63,256 nt of DNA from a virus, in IMG/VR virus record IMGVR_UViG_3300046690_000263, positions 1 to 63,256 of that record; one strand, written 5' to 3'. How positions within the stretch are numbered: the stretch's first letter is position 1; each line of letters begins with the position of its first letter. The notes beneath the pieces were generated by a model, which saw only the letters and a program-made list of their open reading frames with translations, did not search any database and was not told where the DNA came from. Below are positions 31,841-63,256 of this stretch, in pieces. The translations under genes and the position numbers were made by a program.

Positions 31841-34800
31841 ATGTCTGCCAACCCGTATGCAGCACCCGACATGGTGCAGACGAATCCCTACGATTCGCCT
31901 GACATGATCGAAGGCGGATCGCCGCCCGTACCGCAGGCTGGCGCAATCTCGGCGGGCATCAAGAGTGCCCTGCCGGGACTGCAAGAGCAGCTTGGTGAAG
32001 GTGAAGGCTATGCCGCACGCCTCGCCACAAAGGCAGGCGCGACCGGCCTTGCCGACTGGCTGCACCAGAAGTCGCAGGAGAACGCCGCTGAGGTTCAGGC
32101 TGGACAGAACCCCAGTAACACGCTTCCTGAAGATGCAGGAACCGCCGCTCGCGCAGGCTACGGTATCGCGCAGGGCGTCACGCAGGTGGGCATCGTCGGC
32201 GGTGCAGGTGCGGCAACCGGCGCGGCCATCGGCGCGGCCATCGGTGCGCCCGCGTTCGGTATCGGTGCTATCCCCGGCGCAATCGCAGGTGGCGTGCTGG
32301 GCTGGACAATCGCCAACGTCGCCGCGCTGCCCACACTTATGGGTTTCTCGCAGTCAGGCCGCACGGCGGACAAGACCTACGCCTACGCGAAGTCGCAGGG
32401 CGCGAGCGACGAGGAAGCCAACAATCAGGCTATCGACGCAGGCGCGCTGACCGGCGCGGCGGCAGGCGGGCAGGGTGTCGTGCTGGGCCTGCTGGGTCCG
32501 CTCGGCAAGGTGGTCGGCAAGGCACCCGTGGGCAGTGTCGTGGAAACCGCGCTCGCGGCCACCGCTGGCGACATCGCCAAGTCCACCGCCAAGGCCGCAG
32601 GCGTGGGCGCACTGTCCAACGCGGCGGCGACCGGCGCAACTGATCTGGTGGAGCAGAAGTATGCCGGTGGCGAGGGCGTCACGGGGCAGGGCTTGGTTGA
32701 CTCGGCGCTTGTCGGCGCTGGACAGACGGCACTGCTGCATGCACCGGCTGAAGGCATGCGCGCGAGCAAGATGAAGCGCAACGCCGGTATCCTCGCGGAC
32801 CCGACTGCGGACGTGAACGACCGGCAGAAGGCAGCGGCTGCGGCAGTCGCGGCAATCTCGACGCGTGACCCGCAACTGGCTGAAGACTTCGGCATCTACT
32901 CGGCTGTCCAGATTGCACGTGGCCTTCCTGTGGATGTGGCAGGCGATCACGTGTATCAGGCATTCGCACAGGACGCCAAGGATCAGGCCGCGCGCTATGC
33001 CGCGCAACAGCAGACCGGCGCTCCCACGAACGGCACGTTCACGCCGGGGCAGGGCGATCAGACGTTTGGCCCCGCGCCGACCGACAACAGCCGCCCGAAT
33101 CCCGTGGACACGTCGCAGCAGGGGCAGGACATCAACCGTCCGATGCCCAGCGATCCGAACGGCCTGCGCACGGCAGTCGCCGCTGAGGCTCCCCCGGTCG
33201 CAGAAACGCCACTCAACCCGAATGACGTGCCGGGTAGCATTGAAGCACTGAACGCAGCCAACGGCGCGGATGATGCCTTTCTGGATCGCGCGCTCGCGGC
33301 TGCGCATCAGTCGTTGCGCTCGACCGACGCTGGCACGCTGGCTGAACAGTTGCAGAACCCGGACTTCACGGGTGTTCCCACAGGTCCAGTAAGCGAGCGC
33401 ACCGGCACGCCGGACCAGCTTGCGCCCGAACAGCAGTTCTACGCTGAACAGCGCGATCAGGCTGCGGGCGATCTGCGGCAGCAGGCGTTCGATCAGGCTC
33501 AACAGGTCAATGCGCCGCCCGCCGTACCGGCTGACGCGTTCGACCAGCGCAATGCCGCGCTCGCGGATGAAGCCCAGCGCCTGCGCGAGCAGGGCCACGT
33601 GGCGGGCGTCTACGATCAGGCCATGAATGCACCGGAGCGCAACGCCCCGGCAGTCGCGCAGGCTGACGCGGTGAGTCGTGCGGCAGGTGAGGGCGAAGCC
33701 AAGCCGTCGCCGCTGTCGTTCGCCATGAACGCGGAAATGAACCGGCTCGCGCAACGCAATCCGGCCAATCTGACGACCACGCAACTGGGTGCACTTGCCC
33801 AGCATCATCCTGAACAGTCGGTGCGTGATGCCGCTACGCAGGTACTGAACACCCGCCGCAACAAGGCGCTTGTTCAGGAGACCCTGCCGAACGCGGAAAA
33901 CGTGTCGGAAGTGAAGCCGACCGGCGAAATGTCGGGTATGCGTGGCCCCGGCAGTGAACCGCAGGTGGAATTCAGCCAGCAGCGGGTCGCTGACAGGCTC
34001 GCGCAGTTGGGCGAGGGCCAGCGCACGGGTGAGCCCGCCGCAGCCCGTCCTGCGGCCCCGGAAATCGCGCCGTTGAAGGCGTCGCTCGACCGCGAAGCGC
34101 GGTCTCAGGGTCTGCCGTCAGCAGGTGACTTCGAACACGTCACCCGCGACATGCTTCCGGCTGAACGCACGGCAGCGAATAACGGCGTGGAGGGTGCACA
34201 CACGCTCTCGAAAACCGAGTTCGACAGTATCAAGCAGCAGGCCGATATTTTCGGCAAGAAAGTCGTGCTGTTCAGGCAGAACAACCCACGCCCCGGCGAG
34301 GCGCTGGATGGCGCGGTGCTGACCAACGACGCGAAGACGATCTACGTGAACGCCGACGCCGCTGGCGCGCACCACTCCGTGGTGTTGGGCCACGAACTGG
34401 CGCACCAGATGCAGGCCGATGCACCGGACCTGTTCAACGCGCTGTCCAAGGCGGTGATGAAGCAGGCCGAAACCGGGGCGCTGAAGAACTTTGCGGCGTA
34501 CTACGGCGAGCCGGGGAGCCTGAAGGATGCGGAAACCCGCCAGCGGGTGACTGCTGAATTCGTCAGCGATCTGGTAGGCAACCGCTTCCCGGAACTGAAC
34601 ACGTGGCGGCAGGTGTTCGCCGGGGCCGACAAGGCTGACCGTGGACTGGTCTACCGGATCGCCCACTTCGTGACGGGCTTCATTGACCGGCTGCTGGCTA
34701 ACGCGAAGTTCAAGCGGTTCGCCACGGACGACATGGTGAAGAACCTCACAGACGTGCGGACGCAGGTACGCCGCGCGTTGTCGGACTATGCGAACCGGCA

Positions 34801-37800
34801 GGGCATGGAGCGCATGGCGCATGAGGCTGAACAACTGAAGGCGGCAAAGGCTAACAGGGATGCAGGAACGATTCCCGCCAAGAATCTGGTGGAACCGGTC
34901 AAGGCCGAACCGCGAGCGGACACTGGTGTTAAAGTGGAACGTTCAGCACCGGAACCCGTGAAGCCACGTGAGCCGGAACCCGCTCAAGGTAGCCGTAACC
35001 GACTACAGGAGTCAGCACAACGCAACGAGGCAACAAATGAAAGGACCACAGAAACTACAGCAGCCGGAAGACCTGAAGCAGACACTGTTCAGGCTGCACG
35101 CGGAAATGGCGATAGGGGACGGGTCGAACTCACCCACTACTCCAGCCGACCGGGAATCACCGAACTCGACCCCAGCTTCCACGGGACGGGACTCAAAGGT
35201 GCCGAACTCAAACGCCGCGAACACGACCCCGCCAACTACCTGAACAGAACCTACTACGGTATGGACATCGGCAAGCCCGGTGGCTATACCAAGGAAGCGG
35301 GGCTGGGCAACCATGAATACAAGGCGACCGTGGACGCGTCAAAGCTGTACGACGCGGACGCGGACCCGGAAGGTCTTCACAACAAGGGCGCGCTCTCGCC
35401 GTATGTGAACCGCGCGAGCCTGTACGAGAAGGCCATCCATGATGCCGGGTATCAGGGGTATTCAACGCAGCATCCTTCGCTGGGCAAGGTCGCGGTTGTA
35501 TTCGACAAGCTGCCGGTGGAGCAACGTGGAGTAGCGAATGAAGGACGCACCGAAACCGACACCATCACCGGTGTCCAGTCAGTACCTGCCGGAACCGCCG
35601 CAGCGGACGCAGTTTCCCGATCAGGAGTCGTTCGAGGAAGCCCTCGGTGGCTGGCAGAGCAGAGTAGGGCGCATCAAGGCGATGACCTCGCAGGCGTCCC
35701 CAGCAAAGTCACCATCCCCGGCGTCGGAGCAGTAGAGTTTCACAGCTTCAAACCCGCGCAGGAGTCCGCAGCGAAATACATGCGTGACTCCGGTCGGGAC
35801 TACAACCCGCCGAAGCAGTATGTCAAGGTAGACCCGGAACGGGCTACGCGCATCGCACAGGAGTTCGACCGGATGAAGCACGATCCGCAGAACCCTGAAG
35901 TACGCGCGGCCTACGACGCGATGATTCGTGAGACTGAGGCGCAGTATCAGGCGCTGCTGGACACGGGTCTGAAAGTCGAATTCATCCAGCCGGGTCAGGA
36001 AGACCCCTACGCCGCATCACCACGACTCGCGCATCTGGACGTGCTGGACAACAACCACATGTGGGTGTTCAGTACACGCGAGGGGTTCGGTTCGTCCGAA
36101 TTCAATCCCGTGGACAATCCACTGCTGGCAGAGACTGGCCACCAGATCAGCGGCAAGACCGCGCTTGCAAACGACCTGTTCCGTGTGGTCCACGACTACT
36201 ACGGGCATATCGCCAATGGCGTGGGCTTCCGTGCGGACGGAGAAGAAAACGCGTGGCGCTCGCATATGGCCATGTACAGCGATGAGGCTCGCCGCGCAGC
36301 TACCACAGAGACACGTGGACAGAATAGCTGGGTGAACTACGGGCCGTATGGGGATTCGAACCGGACAGCGGGCGGCGCAGAGACTCACTTTGCCGACCAG
36401 AAGATTGGTTTGCTCCCTCAATGGGTTGTTGACGAGGGGCGCACGGATGAACCAGCTACGACGCGGCTTGGCAAGGAAACGGCGGGTGATGGTACAGCTA
36501 ACCCGTTCTCCAGCAATCCAGAAGTGCGCAAGTCTGGTGAGCGTGCTGCGTATCTCGGCAAGCTCGATCCGGCACAGGAAGCCGCCGCGAAAGCTGTCGG
36601 CATGATGGCACCGCGTGAATCGCTCAAGCAGAAAATGCAGACGATGAAGACGGACCTCGGCCAGAAAATGCGGCAGGGGATCGCGGACCAGTTTGACCCG
36701 ATCCGTCAACTCGATGAGAAGGCATACATGCTGTCCAGACTGTCCAAGGGTTCGGACGGTGCGCTCGAAGCTGCACTGTTGTACGGCGCACCTGTGATCC
36801 GCGACGGCGTGTATGACGTGGACGTGAAGGGCAAGGGCTTCGCCAAGATCATGGGCGACCTAGAAGGCGAGCATAACCGTTTCCTGCTGTGGGAAGCGGC
36901 GCACCGCGCTGAAGAACTGAAGGCACAGGGTCGCGAGAACCTGTTCACCAGCAGCGACATCAGCGCGCTCAAGACGCTGGACAGACCGGATGCAGCACAC
37001 CCGAATCGCGCTGCGAAATTCCAGCAGGCGCAAAAGGAGTACCGGGCGTTCAACGAAGCAATGCTCAAGATCGCCCGTGATTCCGGCATCATGTCCGACG
37101 AGGACTACAAGCTGTTCAGGGATCAGCCCTATGTGCCGTTCTATCGCGTGATGGATGAGAAGGACGGCGGCATGACTGGTCCCGGCAGCAAGTCGTCTGG
37201 TCTGGTCAACCAGTATGCGTACAAGAAGCTGAAGGGCGGCACGTCGAAGCTGAACGACGACCTGATGGCTAACGTACTGTCCAACTGGTCGCATCTGCTG
37301 GGGGCATCGTCGCGCAACCGTGCGGCAGTCGCCACCATGGAAGCGGCGGAACGGCTGGGCGCGGCCACGAAGATCAGCGCGGCAGATGCAGGGAAGGGCA
37401 CCGTGCGGGTCAAGGTGGGCGGTAAGGATGTCCACTACGAGGTAGACGATCCGCACCTGCTGTCGGCGGTGTCGGCAATGGCCATGCAGGTGCCGAAGTG
37501 GATGAAACCCCTGTCCACGTTCAAGCACGTGCTGACGCATGCCGTCACTGTGATGCCGGGGTTCAAGCTGCGCAACCTGATCCGCGACTCTGTTCAGGCG
37601 CTTGCAGTGGGCGACCTGTCTCCGAACATCGCGGGCAACGTCGCGGAAGGGATCAAGGGCACCAGCAAAACGTCGCAGACCTACGCCTCAATGCTCGCCT
37701 CGGGCGGCATCATCCGCATGGGCTCGCTGACGGACGGCAACGACGCCACGCGGGTTCACCGGCTGATTCAGGCTGGAGTTCCCGCGCACACGATCCTGAA

Positions 37801-39064
37801 CAGGCCGATGACGGAACGGCTGTTCGATCAGGCACGCGAACTGTACGACGCCTATCAGGAACTGGGCGACCGGTCGGAGAACATCAACCGGGCCGCGCTG
37901 TACCAGCAGTTGCTGAAGCAGGGCAAGACGCACGCAGAAGCGTCGTTCATGGCGCGCGACATGATGGACTTCTCGATGCAGGGCAACTGGCCGGTGATCC
38001 GTTTCCTCACCCAGTCCGTGCCGTTCATGAATGCTCGCATTCAGGGGCTGTACAAGCTGGGCAAGGCAGCGGCAGAGAACCCGGCGCGCGTCGGCGCAGT
38101 CGTGGGAGCAACCATGATGGCGTCGGTCGCGCTCGCGGCGATGTACAAGGATGACCCCGACTGGAAACAGCGCGAGGACTGGGACCGCGACAACTACTGG
38201 TGGTTCAAGATCGGCGGCACGGCGTTCAGAATTCCCAAGCCGTTTGAAGTGGGTGCAGCAGGCACCATTGCTGAGCGTACATGGGAACTGATGAACGACA
38301 AGGAAATGACGGCCAGCAGGTTCGGCGGTCAGGTGGCTGACATCCTCGGCCAGCAGTTCAGCCTGAACCCTACGCCGCAGATCGTCAAGCCGCTGATGGA
38401 TGTCTACGCGAACAAGGATGGTTTCACCGGACGGCCAATCGAGAATCAGGCCATGCAGTCGCTGCGACCCGAAGACCGGTACTCGCAAAGCACCAGCATG
38501 ACCGCGCGGTTTCTCGGGCAGCTTGGCCTGCCGGACCCTGTTCAGTTGATTCAAGGCCGGTACTCGGCGCTGTCGCCTGTCCAGATGGAGTCGCTGTTGC
38601 ATGGCTACTTCGGTTCACTGGGCAATCTCGCGCTCGGGGCCACGGATGCGATTCTGCGTCCGGCCACGGGTCAGGCGTCGGCTCCCTCGACCACGCCGTA
38701 CCAAGTGACTGCCGGGATGGTAGACACGCTCACAGGTTCACAGAGCCGGTATGTCACGGCCATGTACGACAACCTGAACCGGATCGAGCAGGCGTATAAC
38801 TCGTATCACATGTATCTCAAGACTGGACAGCGGGAACAGGCTCAAGAGGAACTGGCTGCGCATCGCGGCCTGATCCAGTCATACCCGATGGCGGAAGCCG
38901 CCAAGCGGGCAATGAGTCAGATGTCTGCACAGGAGAAGCGGATTCTGAACGACACGAACATGTCATCCGCAGAGAAACGCGTGAAGCTCGATGCACTGAC
39001 TGCCAGAAAGAACGCGCTTGCGCAACGTATCGCGCTGCGTGAACTGGACAGGCAACAGCAGTAA
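31841..39064 (+). CDS. Giant polyvalent ejection protein, 2407 aa
   Basis: Last and largest late gene. Residues ~100-300 carry Gly/Ala-rich hydrophobic segments (channel-like). A zincin motif HELAH is at 851-855. Around 1095-1230 (LTHYSSRPGI, NRTYYGMDIG, AIHDAGYQGY, VAVVFDKLPV) it resembles the ART-PolyVal-type domain of polyvalent proteins. Around 1285-1537 another phage module contains RVVHDYYGHIANGVGF. The C-terminal ~800 residues resemble LPD38-type ends. It probably enters the cell with the DNA and carries effector activities. Linkers near residues 1065-1100 and 1230-1300 contain out-of-frame nested genes and use rare codons there. Confidence 0.85.
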   Translation: MSANPYAAPDMVQTNPYDSPDMIEGGSPPVPQAGAISAGIKSALPGLQEQLGEGEGYAARLATKAGATGLADWLHQKSQENAAEVQAGQNPSNTLPEDAGTAARAGYGIAQGVTQVGIVGGAGAATGAAIGAAIGAPAFGIGAIPGAIAGGVLGWTIANVAALPTLMGFSQSGRTADKTYAYAKSQGASDEEANNQAIDAGALTGAAAGGQGVVLGLLGPLGKVVGKAPVGSVVETALAATAGDIAKSTAKAAGVGALSNAAATGATDLVEQKYAGGEGVTGQGLVDSALVGAGQTALLHAPAEGMRASKMKRNAGILADPTADVNDRQKAAAAAVAAISTRDPQLAEDFGIYSAVQIARGLPVDVAGDHVYQAFAQDAKDQAARYAAQQQTGAPTNGTFTPGQGDQTFGPAPTDNSRPNPVDTSQQGQDINRPMPSDPNGLRTAVAAEAPPVAETPLNPNDVPGSIEALNAANGADDAFLDRALAAAHQSLRSTDAGTLAEQLQNPDFTGVPTGPVSERTGTPDQLAPEQQFYAEQRDQAAGDLRQQAFDQAQQVNAPPAVPADAFDQRNAALADEAQRLREQGHVAGVYDQAMNAPERNAPAVAQADAVSRAAGEGEAKPSPLSFAMNAEMNRLAQRNPANLTTTQLGALAQHHPEQSVRDAATQVLNTRRNKALVQETLPNAENVSEVKPTGEMSGMRGPGSEPQVEFSQQRVADRLAQLGEGQRTGEPAAARPAAPEIAPLKASLDREARSQGLPSAGDFEHVTRDMLPAERTAANNGVEGAHTLSKTEFDSIKQQADIFGKKVVLFRQNNPRPGEALDGAVLTNDAKTIYVNADAAGAHHSVVLGHELAHQMQADAPDLFNALSKAVMKQAETGALKNFAAYYGEPGSLKDAETRQRVTAEFVSDLVGNRFPELNTWRQVFAGADKADRGLVYRIAHFVTGFIDRLLANAKFKRFATDDMVKNLTDVRTQVRRALSDYANRQGMERMAHEAEQLKAAKANRDAGTIPAKNLVEPVKAEPRADTGVKVERSAPEPVKPREPEPAQGSRNRLQESAQRNEATNERTTETTAAGRPEADTVQAARGNGDRGRVELTHYSSRPGITELDPSFHGTGLKGAELKRREHDPANYLNRTYYGMDIGKPGGYTKEAGLGNHEYKATVDASKLYDADADPEGLHNKGALSPYVNRASLYEKAIHDAGYQGYSTQHPSLGKVAVVFDKLPVEQRGVANEGRTETDTITGVQSVPAGTAAADAVSRSGVVRGSPRWLAEQSRAHQGDDLAGVPSKVTIPGVGAVEFHSFKPAQESAAKYMRDSGRDYNPPKQYVKVDPERATRIAQEFDRMKHDPQNPEVRAAYDAMIRETEAQYQALLDTGLKVEFIQPGQEDPYAASPRLAHLDVLDNNHMWVFSTREGFGSSEFNPVDNPLLAETGHQISGKTALANDLFRVVHDYYGHIANGVGFRADGEENAWRSHMAMYSDEARRAATTETRGQNSWVNYGPYGDSNRTAGGAETHFADQKIGLLPQWVVDEGRTDEPATTRLGKETAGDGTANPFSSNPEVRKSGERAAYLGKLDPAQEAAAKAVGMMAPRESLKQKMQTMKTDLGQKMRQGIADQFDPIRQLDEKAYMLSRLSKGSDGALEAALLYGAPVIRDGVYDVDVKGKGFAKIMGDLEGEHNRFLLWEAAHRAEELKAQGRENLFTSSDISALKTLDRPDAAHPNRAAKFQQAQKEYRAFNEAMLKIARDSGIMSDEDYKLFRDQPYVPFYRVMDEKDGGMTGPGSKSSGLVNQYAYKKLKGGTSKLNDDLMANVLSNWSHLLGASSRNRAAVATMEAAERLGAATKISAADAGKGTVRVKVGGKDVHYEVDDPHLLSAVSAMAMQVPKWMKPLSTFKHVLTHAVTVMPGFKLRNLIRDSVQALAVGDLSPNIAGNVAEGIKGTSKTSQTYASMLASGGIIRMGSLTDGNDATRVHRLIQAGVPAHTILNRPMTERLFDQARELYDAYQELGDRSENINRAALYQQLLKQGKTHAEASFMARDMMDFSMQGNWPVIRFLTQSVPFMNARIQGLYKLGKAAAENPARVGAVVGATMMASVALAAMYKDDPDWKQREDWDRDNYWWFKIGGTAFRIPKPFEVGAAGTIAERTWELMNDKEMTASRFGGQVADILGQQFSLNPTPQIVKPLMDVYANKDGFTGRPIENQAMQSLRPEDRYSQSTSMTARFLGQLGLPDPVQLIQGRYSALSPVQMESLLHGYFGSLGNLALGATDAILRPATGQASAPSTTPYQVTAGMVDTLTGSQSRYVTAMYDNLNRIEQAYNSYHMYLKTGQREQAQEELAAHRGLIQSYPMAEAAKRAMSQMSAQEKRILNDTNMSSAEKRVKLDALTARKNALAQRIALRELDRQQQ
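35037..35243 (+). CDS. Nested small gene in giant gene (+1 frame), 68 aa
   Basis: ATG 35037 has GAGG 6 nt upstream. The first ~25 residues (MKGPQKLQQPEDLKQTLFRL) read as a sensible helical protein, while the giant gene's own frame here is a linker written with rare codons (GGA, AGA, AGG, CGA, CCT). The last ~40 residues look like a shadow of the ART-like domain, so only the first part may be selected. Confidence is limited by length. Confidence 0.45.
   Translation: MKGPQKLQQPEDLKQTLFRLHAEMAIGDGSNSPTTPADRESPNSTPASTGRDSKVPNSNAANTTPPTT
35538..35735 (+). CDS. Nested small gene in giant gene (+1 frame), 65 aa
   Basis: ATG 35538 has GGAG exactly 6 nt upstream. The protein (Pro-rich start, then QFPDQESFEEALGGWQSRVG) uses GC-ending codons typical of this genome across its length, while the giant gene's frame over the same bases is an unstructured linker with many rare codons (CGA, GGA, AGG, CCT, GTA). 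The nested frame seems to be the one under selection. Function unknown. Confidence 0.55.
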   Translation: MKDAPKPTPSPVSSQYLPEPPQRTQFPDQESFEEALGGWQSRVGRIKAMTSQASPAKSPSPASEQ

Positions 39065-56208: not shown

Positions 56209-56282
56209 AACGCTCTCAAGCAGACCTGACTGGAATTTGCGGAAAACCAAACAGGACACCCTTAATCCCTTGGGTGAACAAG

Positions 56283-59015
56283 ATGATAGCTCACGAACCG
56301 ATGCAGGGCAAGCCTGCCGTTGGTGCTGAACGCACTGTATCCGCATCACGTGGACAGGGCAACCAAGGCCGCGTAAACGCCCCGCTGGACATGGATTGGA
56401 CTGATCTTGTCCAGTTTGTCCAGTCCCCAAAAGAAGCCTCTGTTACACACAGTTACTACTTCAGCCTGCCCAAGAATCGCCCGAAAGGCGCTCCAGACGG
56501 GCTTGTCACGCAGTCTTCGCTTAAGACTGACGATGCGTTCATGTTGTTTGGCGTATGTAAAGACGGCAAGCGTAATGACGCCAATCTCCTGTCCCGTTCA
56601 GCCATCACGCTTGACTACGACCAGCCGGACGCGCTAGGGCTGATGCGCCGCCTGCGGCTGGAGTCGCTGTCCATTCCGTTCGCTTACGTGTGGCATACAA
56701 CACGCTCACACGACATCAATCTTGTCGCTGAACGTGTCCAGCCTAAAGTCCGCATCATCGTCCCGCTCTCGCGCGATGTCAGCCCAACTGAATATCACCT
56801 GCTGGTCAAGCTGGTGGCCAAGATGTTCCCCGCCACGCTCGACCCGGCATCGCTGAAGCCGTCACAGATGATGTACTGCCCTATCCACAACAAGGGCGCA
56901 CCGTACCGTTGTGGCGCGTTCCGTGGGCGCGGCTATCTGGAGCCGGACAGCGTGCTGGCATTCGCTCCCGCAGATGAGGCAGAAGCTGAACAGGAGAACG
57001 AACGCAAGCGCAAGCTGGCTGTTCAGGATGACGGCGACATTGACCCGCTGGTGAACGCCCAGCAGCCGCTGCGTGGAATCACGCTTGAACAGATTGAACA
57101 CGACCTCGACCGGCTCGACCCTGACATGGGCTACGAGGACTGGATGACGGTCATCCGCGCCGTGCACCATCAGACGGTGGGCAGCGATGAAGGCTTCGAA
57201 CTGATCGACACGTGGAGTAGCGGCGGCAGCAGCTACAAGCCGCAGGAAGTGCTGGACAAGTGGGATGAACTGACGCACTCCCCCAAGTCGGGGAAGAAGC
57301 CGCAGTCCTACGCGACTATCGTCAAATGGATGAACGAACAGCGCGCCGACGAAGCGCGCAAGGTCCGTGACGAACTGATTGACGAGATTGAGAACTGCAA
57401 CGACGAACAGCAGCTAGAGACCAAGCTGATCGAGCGCATCGCACGCACCGCTGAACTGACGCCGCTCGGGCGCAAGAAGCTGGGTGAAGTGCTGATCAAG
57501 CGGCAAAAGATCGTGCTGGGTGTCGCGCTCACTGCCGCCGAAATGCGCAAGGCCATTGCCCCCGTGGCGCGGCAGACGCAGGCCGTGGCGACGGTCTCCG
57601 CGAGTCAGGGCGACACGCGTTACACCGAAATGGGCAACACGCAACTGCTCTATGACCGCATTGGCCGCAACCTGATTTTCATTCCTGAACTGCAAGTCTG
57701 GTACAGGTGGAACAAGGGACACTGGCAGGAGTACCCGGTGGAAGCGATCAAGCGCGTGGCGCAACAGGTCATTGACGACATGCCGCGTCACATCCCCGAC
57801 ACGCTGAACAACGCGCAGATCGGTGAGTATCTGGCGTGGTGCATCAAGTCGCAGACCAAGCACATGGTGGACGCGATGGTCGCGCTGCTCCCCGGCACGC
57901 CGGACAGTGACATGCTGGTGCCCGGTGCGATGCTGGACAGCGACCCGTGGTTGCTCGGGGTGCGCAATGGCGTGCTGGACCTGAAGACCGGGGAACTGCG
58001 CGACGCTGAACGCGCCGATCTGGTGACGCGCGTGACCGCGTGCGACTACGATCCCGATGCGCCCTGCCCGCTCTTTGAGAAAGTGGTGGCTGACGCGTTC
58101 TTTGACGACGCGCAACTGATCGACTGGTTCCAGCGGGTCATTGGTTACTCGCTGTGCGGCAACCCTAAAGAACAGTTCTTCGTGATCCCCTACGGGCTGG
58201 GTAGCAACGGCAAGTCCACGATCCTGAACGCGATCCGCGACGTGCTGGGCATGCACGCGGCTTCGACGCCGTACACCACGTTCCTCACCGATGGCAAGTC
58301 GCAGGTGTCCGCGACCGGCCCGAATGAAGCCCTGCTGCGGCTGAAGGGCTCGCGCTTCGTCTATATGTCGGAGCCGGAAAGCGGGATGCAGTTGCGGGCG
58401 TCGCTGATCAAGTCTGTCACTGGCGGCGACGAACTGACGGCGCGCGGGGTGCACGCAAAGAAGTCGATTGCGTTCAAGCCTACGTGGGTCATCTTCATGC
58501 CGACGAATCACAAACCTATCGTGCGGGACGACGATCACGGCATCTGGCGGCGCATCCGGCTGGTCCCGTTCGAACGCAACTTTGACGAAGACAAGCTGAT
58601 CGAGAAAGACACCGAACTGGACGAAAAGCTGAAGGCTGAACACGAAGGCATCCTTGCGTGGTGTGTGGCCGGTGCGACCCGGTATCTGCGCGACGGACTG
58701 GGGGATCAGCCGCGTGCGGTCAGCGAGGCGCACGACGCATACAAGACAGACATGGACGTGCTGCATGAGTGGCTAGAGGATCACTGGATCATCGAGCCGC
58801 TGGCAAAAGTGAGCGCCGCCGAACTGTTCAGTTCGTGGGAAAAGTACGCGCTGAGAACACAGACGCCGGTGAAGCTGTCGCAAAAAGCACTGGGCCGCAA
58901 GATGCTGGAGCGCGGATTCAGGCAGTACAAGACCCGAAATGGACGCGGCTGGGTCGGATTGACGCGACGCGAGCGGTCGGCGGAAGACGAAGGCTTTGAC
59001 GGTGCAAGTAGCTGA
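56283..59015 (+). CDS. Primase-helicase (AEP-like/PriCT/SF3), 910 aa
   Basis: The N-terminal ~220 residues look like a bifunctional primase-polymerase fold (AITLDYDQPDALGLMRRLRL, YVWHTTRSHDINL, KPSQMMYCPIHNK). A PriCT-like helical domain follows (YEDWMTVIRAVHHQTVGSDE ... IDTWSSGG). The C-terminal part is a D5-like SF3 helicase: Walker A GLGSNGKST (about 638-646), then FVYMSEPESG and WVIFMPTNHKPIVRDDD. It primes and unwinds phage DNA at the origin. The start is uncertain: GTG 56274, ATG 56283 and ATG 56301 all lack a strong ribosome-binding site. Confidence 0.88.
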   Translation: MIAHEPMQGKPAVGAERTVSASRGQGNQGRVNAPLDMDWTDLVQFVQSPKEASVTHSYYFSLPKNRPKGAPDGLVTQSSLKTDDAFMLFGVCKDGKRNDANLLSRSAITLDYDQPDALGLMRRLRLESLSIPFAYVWHTTRSHDINLVAERVQPKVRIIVPLSRDVSPTEYHLLVKLVAKMFPATLDPASLKPSQMMYCPIHNKGAPYRCGAFRGRGYLEPDSVLAFAPADEAEAEQENERKRKLAVQDDGDIDPLVNAQQPLRGITLEQIEHDLDRLDPDMGYEDWMTVIRAVHHQTVGSDEGFELIDTWSSGGSSYKPQEVLDKWDELTHSPKSGKKPQSYATIVKWMNEQRADEARKVRDELIDEIENCNDEQQLETKLIERIARTAELTPLGRKKLGEVLIKRQKIVLGVALTAAEMRKAIAPVARQTQAVATVSASQGDTRYTEMGNTQLLYDRIGRNLIFIPELQVWYRWNKGHWQEYPVEAIKRVAQQVIDDMPRHIPDTLNNAQIGEYLAWCIKSQTKHMVDAMVALLPGTPDSDMLVPGAMLDSDPWLLGVRNGVLDLKTGELRDAERADLVTRVTACDYDPDAPCPLFEKVVADAFFDDAQLIDWFQRVIGYSLCGNPKEQFFVIPYGLGSNGKSTILNAIRDVLGMHAASTPYTTFLTDGKSQVSATGPNEALLRLKGSRFVYMSEPESGMQLRASLIKSVTGGDELTARGVHAKKSIAFKPTWVIFMPTNHKPIVRDDDHGIWRRIRLVPFERNFDEDKLIEKDTELDEKLKAEHEGILAWCVAGATRYLRDGLGDQPRAVSEAHDAYKTDMDVLHEWLEDHWIIEPLAKVSAAELFSSWEKYALRTQTPVKLSQKALGRKMLERGFRQYKTRNGRGWVGLTRRERSAEDEGFDGASS

Positions 59016-59028
59016 TTTAAAACAACAA

Positions 59029-59161
59029 TGACGCATGTGACACGTTTTGCAGCAAACTTTCGTGTGTCGCATGTGAAACAAATTAATCATTTTTTCAATT
59101 TCTCTCCACGTGTACGGGTGGGGAAAATATAGGAAAAAGGTCTATATGCGTCACATGCGTC
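59029..59161. other. Iteron cluster, candidate replication origin
   Basis: Three copies of a 14-nt iteron related to GACGCATGTGACAC: 59030-59043, 59066-59079 (two changes) and an inverted copy at 59148-59161, spanning a markedly AT-rich stretch (59077-59140). It lies in the only sizeable gap of the replication operon, directly behind the primase-helicase gene. This is the classic layout of an iteron origin; the initiator is unknown (the primase-helicase itself is a candidate). Confidence 0.6.
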
Positions 59162-59201
59162 ACACTAGGTAGAAACCCTTAATCCAAAGAGGAACTGAAC
59201 A

Positions 59202-59687
59202 ATGACTAAAGAACTGAACAAGATCAGCCGTGTGGAAGCCATCGAGCAGGTGGCCAGCCTGTTCATTAAAGCCGACGCCTTGGTGGTCGATCTGGCGAAT
59301 GCACCCGGCTATCCCGACATGATGGTGCTGGTGAAGGACTGCATGCCGCTGTTCATCTTCGTGCGGCCCGATGATGTGACCAGCCCTGACTGGGCAGCGG
59401 CCAAGGTGGTGGTGGAGAAGAACCTCGCAGCCGTGAACGCCACGTGGTTCGACGCAACCGAGGTCAGCGATCTGGACTGGGTACTGGGCGAGGTCATGCG
59501 CCGCACGAAACCCGGCGAAATCCGTGAACTCCCTGTTCAGTTGACGGCTGAACAGCAGGGATTCGAATTCGCTGGATCGGCAGACGCGTCAGAAACGGTC
59601 ACAGGAGCCTTGGACGCCCCCGTCGATACCGTGGCAGTCGAGAAAGCCCCGCAAGCCCGTGGCGACCGCAAGGCGTGGCTGGCATGA
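59202..59687 (+). CDS. VRR-NUC-like protein lacking catalytic residues, 161 aa
   Basis: The middle (GYPDMMVLVKDCMPLFIFVR) resembles the VRR-NUC core G-x-PD ... E-x-K of the next gene, but the E-x-K position reads F-V-R, so it is probably inactive. GAGGA precedes ATG 59202 and the C-terminal ~45 residues are acidic and disordered. It may partner or regulate the active nuclease. Assignment is tentative. Confidence 0.5.
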   Translation: MTKELNKISRVEAIEQVASLFIKADALVVDLANAPGYPDMMVLVKDCMPLFIFVRPDDVTSPDWAAAKVVVEKNLAAVNATWFDATEVSDLDWVLGEVMRRTKPGEIRELPVQLTAEQQGFEFAGSADASETVTGALDAPVDTVAVEKAPQARGDRKAWLA

Positions 59688-60004
59688 GTCACGACACACG
59701 CCGGGAAAGCAGCATCGAGCGCGTTTTGCGTGAAGGCGTGGAAAAACTGGGCGGCAAAGCGTACAAGTTCGTGTCCCCCGGCGAGGCTGGGGTGGCCGAC
59801 CGCGTGATCGTTCTGCCGTTCATTCCGGTGTGGTTTGTCGAATGCAAGGCTGAACACAAACCACTGGAGCCGTTGCAGATACTGTTCAGGGATTTTGTGA
59901 CTGAACGCGGCCACCAGCATGCGACGCTGGATTCGATAGCCAAGGTGTCGAACTGGCTGGCCGCACGGCACCGCGACATCATGCGAGCAAAGGCACTGCG
60001 ATGA
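59684..60004 (+). CDS. VRR-NUC nuclease, 106 aa
   Basis: Stand-alone VRR-NUC domain: GEAGVADRVIVLPFIPVWFV then ECKAEHKPLEPLQILFRDFV gives the D...E-x-K active site with the following Q motif, at the family's usual length. Phage VRR-NUC enzymes cut structured DNA and often pair with an SNF2 helicase, as here. ATGA overlaps link it to both neighbours. Confidence 0.88.
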   Translation: MSHDTRRESSIERVLREGVEKLGGKAYKFVSPGEAGVADRVIVLPFIPVWFVECKAEHKPLEPLQILFRDFVTERGHQHATLDSIAKVSNWLAARHRDIMRAKALR

Positions 60005-61506
60005 GCGAGATATGGACCCCCCGCGTCTATCAGGATCACGGGCTGGACTTCGTGCTGGACACGCCGGACTGCGGTCTGTGGCTTCCCATGGGTCTGGGAA
60101 AGACCAGCATCGCCGCGACCGCGATCATGACGTGTCTCTACGATACGTTCGACGTGCGGCGTGTGCTGATCGTGGCACCGAAGCGTGTAGCCAGCAAGGT
60201 GTGGCCGGATGAGTTCGCCAAGTGGAAGCATCTGGCGTTCATGCAGTACCGTGTGCTGAGCGCGGCAGACTTCGGACTGACCCCCGGCTATCAGACCGTG
60301 GACGTGTACGAGCCGGTGCTTGAAACGATTCGAAAGAAGCAGAAGAAAGGCAAGCTGACGTTCGGCTGGGACAGCGAGGACGATGCAGCCAACCGCAAGG
60401 CCAAGGCCGCATGCAAGAAGCGGCTACAGTCCTACACTGAACGCATTCACATCGTGTCGTGGGACTTTCTTGAATATCTGGTTGACGCCTACGGTGTGAA
60501 CTGGCCGTATGAAATGGTGGTGCTGGACGAATCGAGTTTCATCAAGAGTCAGGACACCAACCGCTTCAGGGCTTGCCGTGACTTCAGGAAGCACACGGGC
60601 CGCATTGTCCAGTTGACCGGCACGCCTGCAACCAATGGCCTGCTGAACATCTGGAGCCAGCTATGGATACTGGACAAGGGCAAGCGACTGGGCGAAACGT
60701 ACAGCGCCTACCGCAGCGCCTATTTCACTCCCGCAGCCACGGGAAGGGATGGCACCGTGTATAGCTGGGCTATCGACAAGGGAGCGAAAGAAAAGATTTA
60801 CGGCCGCATCGGTGACATCGTAATGTCGTTGCGTGCGCAGGACTGGATCACCCTGCCCTCTGTCATTGACAACCCGGTCTACATTGATCTGCCTGAGAAG
60901 GCGCGCGACATGTACGACACCATCGAGCGCGATCTGGTGGCGATGATGAAAGGCAGCACGGTCAGCGCACGCAACCCGGCAGCGCTGGTGAACAAGCTGA
61001 TGCAGATAGCGAACGGCACGGTCTACGACGATGGCCGCAAGCCTGTCCACGTGCACGACGAGAAGCTGAAGGCACTCGCAGAGATAGCGGAATCACAGGA
61101 CGGCAACCTGCTGGTGTTCTACGCCTACAAGCCTGAAGCTGAAGCAATCCAGAAGTTCTTCGGCAAAAAGGCAGTGAAGCTGGACACCGACGCGAAGATG
61201 GATGAGTGGAACAAAGGCCACATCAAGATCGCCTACAGCCACGCAGCCAGCATCGGTTATGGCAGCAACATCCAGAAAGGCGGCAACAAGGTGGTGTGGT
61301 ACTCACCGACGCACAATCTTGAACACTGGCAGCAGGCCAACGCACGACTGGTGCGCAGTGGACAGGAAGCGGACCATGTGATCCAGTCGTGCATCATGGC
61401 GACCGACACACTGGACAGGCATGTGAGATATCGGGTACTGGCAGACAAGGAAGCAGACCAGCAGAGTCTGATGGATGCCGTACTCGCACGGATAGGGGAA
61501 CTGTAA
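60001..61506 (+). CDS. SNF2-type SF2 helicase, 501 aa
   Basis: Two RecA-like domains with all motifs: I PMGLGKTS (about 29-36), II LDES (about 175-178), III LTGTPATN (about 201-208), and VI ARLVRSGQEADHV. Such phage helicases remodel DNA-protein complexes or recombination intermediates and regularly accompany VRR-NUC. Length normal; starts in ATGA overlap with the nuclease. Confidence 0.92.
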   Translation: MSEIWTPRVYQDHGLDFVLDTPDCGLWLPMGLGKTSIAATAIMTCLYDTFDVRRVLIVAPKRVASKVWPDEFAKWKHLAFMQYRVLSAADFGLTPGYQTVDVYEPVLETIRKKQKKGKLTFGWDSEDDAANRKAKAACKKRLQSYTERIHIVSWDFLEYLVDAYGVNWPYEMVVLDESSFIKSQDTNRFRACRDFRKHTGRIVQLTGTPATNGLLNIWSQLWILDKGKRLGETYSAYRSAYFTPAATGRDGTVYSWAIDKGAKEKIYGRIGDIVMSLRAQDWITLPSVIDNPVYIDLPEKARDMYDTIERDLVAMMKGSTVSARNPAALVNKLMQIANGTVYDDGRKPVHVHDEKLKALAEIAESQDGNLLVFYAYKPEAEAIQKFFGKKAVKLDTDAKMDEWNKGHIKIAYSHAASIGYGSNIQKGGNKVVWYSPTHNLEHWQQANARLVRSGQEADHVIQSCIMATDTLDRHVRYRVLADKEADQQSLMDAVLARIGEL

Positions 61507-62912: not shown

Positions 62913-63125
62913 TTATTCTCCGTCGTCCAGCAGACCGGCACACGTCATGGCGTGCCGAACTGATTCGTTGAACTTCTCCATGCCGACATCCAGCGTCATT
63001 GCAAGCCGGACATCAGAGCCATATTCGCAACGATATGAGTGATCGTGCATTTCGAGCAGCTTGACAGCGTACTGGCCGGGTATATTGCAGGTGGCAATCA
63101 CCTGCTGAACAATTCCGAATGCCAT
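62913..63125 (-). CDS. Hypothetical protein, 70 aa
   Basis: TAGGAG lies upstream of ATG 63125, itself behind the 43-nt leader hairpin (63142-63184). Mixed fold with several Cys/His (QQVIATCNIPGQYAVKLLEM; HDHSYRCEYGSDVRLAMTLD). Because of the terminal overlap, the bases before it are repeated at 1-132. Unrecognised. Confidence 0.7.
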   Translation of the reverse strand: MAFGIVQQVIATCNIPGQYAVKLLEMHDHSYRCEYGSDVRLAMTLDVGMEKFNESVRHAMTCAGLLDDGE

Positions 63126-63256
63126 GACAATCTCCTACAGTTGAGGGAACAGACTACAGCCCCCTGTCACGGGGCTGGGTATGTCGCCTAGAGCTTGCGC
63201 AGCCAGTTCTGCCGGGTATTGGTGAAGCCCCTGTTCAGAGCGTACTTGTGTGCCTG
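63125..63256. repeat. Terminal direct repeat, right copy
   Basis: Second copy of bases 1-132. It contains the leader element 63142-63184 and a truncated copy of the 3' part of the gene at 64-267. The single mismatch (T63251 against C127) may reflect strain variation in the sample or a read error. Confidence 0.9.

Follow-up and report, generated by a model that had tools for sequence, protein, structure and literature searches.

A putative phage replication origin of inverted tandem 9-mers behind the primase-helicase gene, varying along with a predicted wing of the initiator

The window analysed here is the whole of a 63,256-nucleotide viral DNA stretch, IMG/VR record IMGVR_UViG_3300046690_000263 (positions 1 to 63,256). 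It codes for terminase, portal, major head protein, and DNA polymerase, and is a full phage, not a phage-dependent satellite island. From a 126-bp terminal direct repeat (positions 1–126 and 63125–63250), the record is probably a complete genome closing into a circle. A GC-rich hairpin motif, AGCCCCCTGTCACGGGGCTGGGTATGT, is found in the terminal repeat and in one copy 0.5 kb further in (34–64, 568–598, and 63158–63188), and no Rfam match to it was found. The virion-gene region includes a 2407-aa protein (31841–39064) whose C-terminal 820 residues match a PHROG without assigned function. The element described below begins at 59028, directly behind the stop of the primase-helicase gene at 59015, within the replication operon (Table 1). 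The terminase genes lie ~6 kb from it, beyond genes of opposite orientation.

Table 1. Genes and sequence features at the putative origin (positions in the window)
Feature	Position	Strand	Basis
Primase-helicase, 913 aa, PriCT_2 + D5_N + DUF5906 (SF3/D5 type)	56274–59015	+	Pfam, PHROGs, AlphaFold, PDB folds
Predicted third (recognition) helix of winged helix, codons 870–879, conserved ALGR motif	58881–58910	+	AlphaFold, alignment
Predicted wing beta-hairpin, codons 883–898	58920–58967	+	AlphaFold strands
Gap between primase-helicase stop (59015) and next gene (59202)	59016–59201		
Outlying left tandem pair A, A1/A2 = ATGACGCAT/GTGACACGT	59028–59045	+	Sequence; placed relative to B as in L007
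Whole family element, predicted replication origin	59058–59169	.	R2/R1 model match
Inner left tandem pair B, B1/B2 = GTGTCGCAT/GTGAAACAA	59064–59081	+	Sequence; covered by model match
AT-rich core, 64 nt, predicted melting region	59082–59145	.	AT content; core signature common to relatives
Right tandem pair C, GTGACGCAT/GTGACGCAT, inverted relative to A and B	59146–59163	−	Sequence
Gene after element, 161 aa, without Pfam or PHROG match	59202–59687	+	ORF
Endonuclease-like (phrog_93 region), 109 aa, replication operon	59675–60004	+	PHROGs
SNF2-like DNA helicase, 501 aa, replication operon	60001–61506	+	Pfam SNF2-rel_dom, phrog_62

An earlier note on this DNA had described three 14-nt repeat copies, one of them inverted, around an AT-rich core. 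We mapped the copies to 59029–59043 (+), 59065–59079 (+), and 59148–59162 (−), and refined the description, as each "14-mer" resolves into a tandem pair of 9-mers (pairs A, B, and C). Exact CGCATGTGA has 3 copies in the 63 kb, all inside the gap, and the perfect unit GTGACGCAT is present genome-wide only at 59146 and 59155. Besides the three copies, the genome holds a single near match to the 14-nt consensus, with 3 mismatches; counted singly at 3 mismatches, the consensus was found 4 times compared to 3.5 expected in shuffles. The exact repeat consensus was therefore rejected as a signal, since a genome-wide excess is absent and only clustering and geometry are informative. It is the clustering of the copies, not their genome-wide frequency, that is unusual.

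Pair C is the sole perfect tandem. Relative to the perfect unit, A2 matches at 7/9 and B2 at 6/9 positions, and binding at these two degenerate units may be weak. Pair B follows A at a spacing of 36 bp, and exactly 64 nt of core separate it from C. A perfect 13-nt inverted repeat flanks the AT-rich core of the gap; the inner arms, B compared to C, show partial complementarity only. The core consists of a T-tract, TTTCTC, alternating CACGTGTAC, and an A-tract, with ~67% AT compared to 40% genome-wide, and the most AT-rich 130-nt stretch of the genome falls in the gap. We found no terminator and no DnaA box (TTATNCACA, ≤1 mismatch) from 56.9 kb to the record end. A classical iteron plasmid origin with DnaA was rejected because DnaA boxes were not found beside the iterons, and a known RNA family was rejected because the element has no Rfam match. 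The cumulative GC skew of this genome tracks gene orientation and is for that reason uninformative on the origin.

A single-protein query for close relatives gave no match in viral and genome contigs, and relatives were collected with an alignment query instead. The closest of them, L007 (67% protein identity), has the 9-mer AGTGACGTT. The earlier note had staked its reading on the presence of the repeats in close relatives and had proposed a search for them. The anatomy was indeed present in L007, with three pairs spaced as in this phage, the outlying third pair included, and the layout was found behind the primase across the group, whereas the exact 9-mer of this phage is absent even in L007. 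Bordetella phage BPP-1, Acinetobacter phage 4316, and Burkholderia phage BcepC6B, with primases 32–35% identical over the full alignment, carry 2+2 inverted tandem 9-mers (TTTGCCTCG, AGTGACGTT, and GGGACGATA, respectively) and an AT-rich core behind the primase gene. The deposited BcepC6B genome was opened within the left 9-mer pair, leaving the element split across the record ends (L004/L006) and easily missed.

To survey the layout, we scanned for tandem repeats of whatever sequence that form an inverted pair (period 7–12, core 15–170 nt), without regard to position. In 80 IMG/VR loci the best match lay behind the primase in most. For a non-redundant set of 47 related loci with enough downstream sequence, the plain scan placed the element ≤700 nt behind the primase in 42, compared to 0/47 Markov shuffles with any match, and the one match elsewhere among the 47 was the displaced element of L062. 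The repeat period was 9 in 35 of the 42 elements, 8 in 6, and 10 in 1; the core was 59–68 nt long in 40/42, with a modal length of 64, and the core signature of this phage recurs in relatives. Compared across phages, the elements keep their symmetry, their 9-bp period, and the length of the core, and the 9-mer differs from one phage to another.

The genome of L007 contains a second complete element (L097:5966–6073; G001:C1:55965–56072) between virion genes; it repeats the 9-mer found behind the L007 primase but has a different core, and no second element was found in the matching gap of this phage (12902–12980). Among distant plasmids and actinophages, the plain 2+2 scan gave a clear match behind the primase in just one case, Bacillus phage rho14, where inverted tandem 9-mers TTGTTACTT enclose a 78-nt core (L091:5476–5591) and a further pair lies downstream. 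Thermaerobacter plasmid L092 has a similar pair of equal score, but upstream of the primase. In phiBT1, Cen1621, Tutumahutu, and the Parageobacillus plasmid the scan gave no comparable match, and the 2+2 design is thus not universal among D5 primases.

Two family models, R2 with arm pairing and R1 from sequence alone, were trained on 38 elements, with this phage, L007, BPP-1, and 4316 left out. Both matched this genome at one place, 59058–59169 (R2, E = 1.7e-11, with none other at E up to 10; R1, E = 1.2e-10), and the match occurs on both strands because the element is near-palindromic. The strict scan alone had missed the element of this phage because its left second units are degenerate. The decisive significance of the putative element comes from the family model, trained without this phage. 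The model also recovered all 5 loci missed by the scan (L021, L055, L060, L062, and L079), and the BPP-1 element, outside the training set, proved to be a member of the family. Among 46 other records searched whole, 45 matched, namely 44 IMG/VR or phage records of the primase clade and a Klebsiella plasmid. Nearly all matched records had one place per genome; G019 and G023 had weaker second places. Since many of the 44 records supplied training elements, their matches show once-per-genome occurrence and not independent discovery, the independent cases being the held-out ones (L007, BPP-1, 4316, and the scan-missed loci). R2 had no match in Bacillus phage rho14. In the Klebsiella plasmid, two weak model matches (L095:5477–5559 and 2585–2669) flank a P4-family primase gene, near an integrase gene.

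We also considered the protein encoded beside the element. An AlphaFold model of its C-terminal part (mean pLDDT 85), built on an alignment from which rows of the phage collection were left out, predicts with good confidence an SF3/D5 helicase followed by a C-terminal winged helix, with the third helix at model residues 437–446 and the predicted wing strands at model residues 450–454 and 457–465 (protein residues 883–887 and 890–898). Its fold matches in the PDB were ASFV PrimPol, poxvirus D5/E5, and the SaPI5 primase-helicase (7ola), which the sequence profile of the helicase also reaches. The protein is accordingly predicted to be a self-loading initiator with a C-terminal winged helix.

Residue 887 was the best predictor of 9-mer position 2 among more than 500 alignment columns (D with C in 18/20, N with G in 7/8, G with T in 8/8), and residue 886 was the best predictor of position 3 among more than 500 columns. 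In 24 disjoint nearest-relative pairs, residues 886–887 ranked 1 of 658 alignment windows for changing along with the 9-mer (counts 14, 1, 1, 8; Fisher p = 1e-4, uncorrected for the 658 windows). Each of the eight best-ranked windows fell within residues 880–894. These statistics rest on 24 pairs, with 9-mers registered by the CG anchor and residues picked by ranking, and the p-values are exploratory. In close pairs, segment 882–894 differed at 53% of sites when the 9-mers differed compared to 5.5% when they were the same; the corresponding values for the helicase were 7.0% and 4.6%. The near-identical primases of L024 and L031 show 10 differences over 638 aligned residues. Five of these differences form an unbroken run at 883–887, and the two 9-mers (GTGACGTTA and GTGGCGTTA) differ at position 4. 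For 9-mer positions 7–9, many columns tied through an effect of kinship, with no wing-specific signal. Two prophage contigs, L023 and L036, share the IMG genome number 2565956658; their helicase domains are 2% different, and their 9-mers and wing residues differ, which would fit a need for co-resident replicons to remain separate. In L062 and L063 a stretch of 4.3 kb separates the primase from the element downstream (L062:12273–12381, L063:12167–12275), which allows the relation between 9-mer and wing to be examined without adjacency. Together, these correlations suggest that the 9-mer is likely read directly by the wing.

The symmetry of the arms bears on how the site would be recognised. Across the elements, double changes were present in 20/20 arm pairs, 94.8% of arm cells paired compared to 66% in shuffles (a value partly built in, as the elements were picked by a symmetry-requiring scan), and the arm covariation score was 0.67 compared to 0.15 in shuffles. 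The scarcity of one-sided changes (6, compared to 177 double changes) and the five scan-independent recoveries are not built in by the scan. An RNA or a single-strand hairpin would tolerate G-U pairs. Because one-sided changes are few and G-U is almost absent, the arm symmetry reads as a putative protein site on double-stranded DNA, not as an RNA or single-strand hairpin. We therefore consider it improbable that the same site serves as an origin recognised as an extruded single-strand stem-loop, although the given strand of this phage folds better than shuffles (z = −3.55), pRN1 needs a 100-bp stem-loop and its mutants point towards recognition of the structure, and a stem-loop has been proposed for BIP-1 (PMC4234260). 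Beyond the pattern of arm changes, a hairpin has no need of the tandem 9-mers that make up each arm, and the 9-mer tracks the predicted DNA-binding wing; in this phage the inner arms are only partly complementary, yet pair C is a perfect tandem.

The intergenic position within an operon and one promoter-like match, on the minus strand, would fit an operator or promoter for the genes from 59202 onward, but this is very unlikely, as the genes behind the element vary between phages and its association with the primase does not: in BPP-1 and 4316 these are HNH or recombinase-like and terminase genes, here a gene without assigned function and a nuclease. Moreover, the L062 element is displaced by 4.3 kb and a second copy in G001 stands among virion genes, the region of the Cro-like gene has no exact copy of the 9-mer, and operators do not feature a conserved AT core of 64 nt. 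Least credible of all, and close to dismissed, is a packaging (cos/pac) site. A small terminase gene follows soon after the element in BPP-1, 4316, and BcepC6B, and the BcepC6B record was opened inside the element; in this phage, with its terminase genes at a distance, the element is still behind the primase, and the covariation is with the primase C-terminus.

We conclude that the element at 59028–59163 is a putative replication origin of the phage (probability roughly 0.88), on account of its 2+2 9-mers, AT-rich core, adjacency to the primase-helicase gene, conserved layout, held-out model match, and linkage to the wing. The proposal of the earlier note, an iteron-type origin next to its own initiator, thus stands as the best reading, with the family element behind the primase across the group and a similar layout in phage Sfi21. 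At such an origin, winged-helix domains of the primase-helicase would bind both 9-mers of each arm, the wing reading the variable 9-mer positions 2–3 and perhaps 4, whereas the near-invariant CG of positions 5–6 would be contacted by the conserved third helix. By analogy, the two arms would nucleate two helicase rings facing each other, the core would melt, and two forks would depart in opposite directions, both primed by the attached primase. The outlying pair A of this lineage may add loading sites.

To our knowledge, the origins of most phages are unknown, their sequences not being conserved. As the layout is conserved here and the sequence is not, origins could be found by geometry; a single model located a candidate origin here and in each of the 44 further phage records of the primase clade that were searched. 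The linkage of wing and 9-mer provides a testable rule for origin choice by self-loading helicases and offers a reason for the coexistence of related replicons. Whether D5-type primase-helicases of phages, satellites, and archaeal plasmids share one origin design, with 2+2 tandem 9-mers, a ~60-nt core, and a password set by a few wing residues, is to our minds an even bet. If they do, origin specificity would be readable from protein sequence, and co-resident elements would stay apart by changing wing and 9-mer together. Judged against the open-access literature only, the rigid geometry and the wing/9-mer linkage appear to be new.

Several known systems resemble the element. The P4 alpha protein is likewise a winged-helix primase-helicase that binds origin repeats, according to PMC4234260, but has a Toprim-type primase. 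The SCCmec protein Cch2, itself a helicase of D5_N type, uses its C-terminal domain to bind direct repeats that lie downstream of its operon; these are three 5-nt iterons, and a 2+2 inverted layout is not reported in the accessible part of that paper (PMC7581432). PICI origins lie 3′ of the initiator gene and have an AT-rich region with an iteron set on either side; one such pri-ori segment supported plasmid replication (PMC6092414). In the gap of this phage, two iteron sets flank an AT-rich region 3′ of the initiator in the same way, and 9-nt tandem pairs are visible in the EcCICFT073 origin, in which R2 had no match; the helicase is also related to the SaPI5 primase-helicase (7ola). PICI and SaPI origins differ in being larger, with more iterons and wider, less regular spacing, and belong to satellites, not to a full phage.

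pRN1 requires a 100-bp stem-loop behind its replication protein gene, and related plasmids keep the stem-loop structure, not its sequence (PMC4234260). Specific binding by the pRN1 protein was absent in gel shifts and footprints, and one stem mutation was tolerated only once symmetry had been restored (PMC4234260), which favours a role for stem structure in pRN1. For BIP-1, a stem-loop behind the protein gene was proposed as the origin, and origin-like iterons were not found there (PMC4234260). The BPP-1 element of our family appears to be that proposed site. As in pRN1 and BIP-1, our element is symmetric, ~100 bp long, and 3′ of the gene for a primase-SF3 helicase-winged helix protein, with symmetry kept and sequence not. 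The pRN1 origin itself has a 21-nt stem and a 58-nt loop. Against the BIP-1 view of stem-loop recognition without iterons, the arms here are tandem 9-mers, perfect in BPP-1. The arms of pRN1 (TTATGTCCA/TAGTGTCCA) and pHEN7 (TGTCACCAC/TGTCACAAC) also repeat at 9 nt; among the archaeal plasmid arms of pRN1, pRN2, and pHEN7 (L101:385–405, L102:61–80, L103:190–213) this repeat is clear in pHEN7 and pRN1 and weak in pRN2, and is suggestive.

The record of Sfi21, a Gram-positive siphophage of Streptococcus thermophilus, annotates a 302-bp non-coding origin directly behind a helicase gene, whose product matches the same helicase profile. According to PMC6356513, this region acts as an independent origin that viral infection activates. 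The best scan match in the 10.7-kb stretch falls within it, a perfect 2+2 inverted 8-mer element in which TTAGTTAC is present twice, inverted, on the two sides of a 71-nt core. Sfi21 differs from our phage in its 8-nt unit, its longer core, and its separate primase and helicase genes, and shares with it an AT-rich core enclosed by 2+2 inverted tandem repeats, in the position immediately following the helicase gene.
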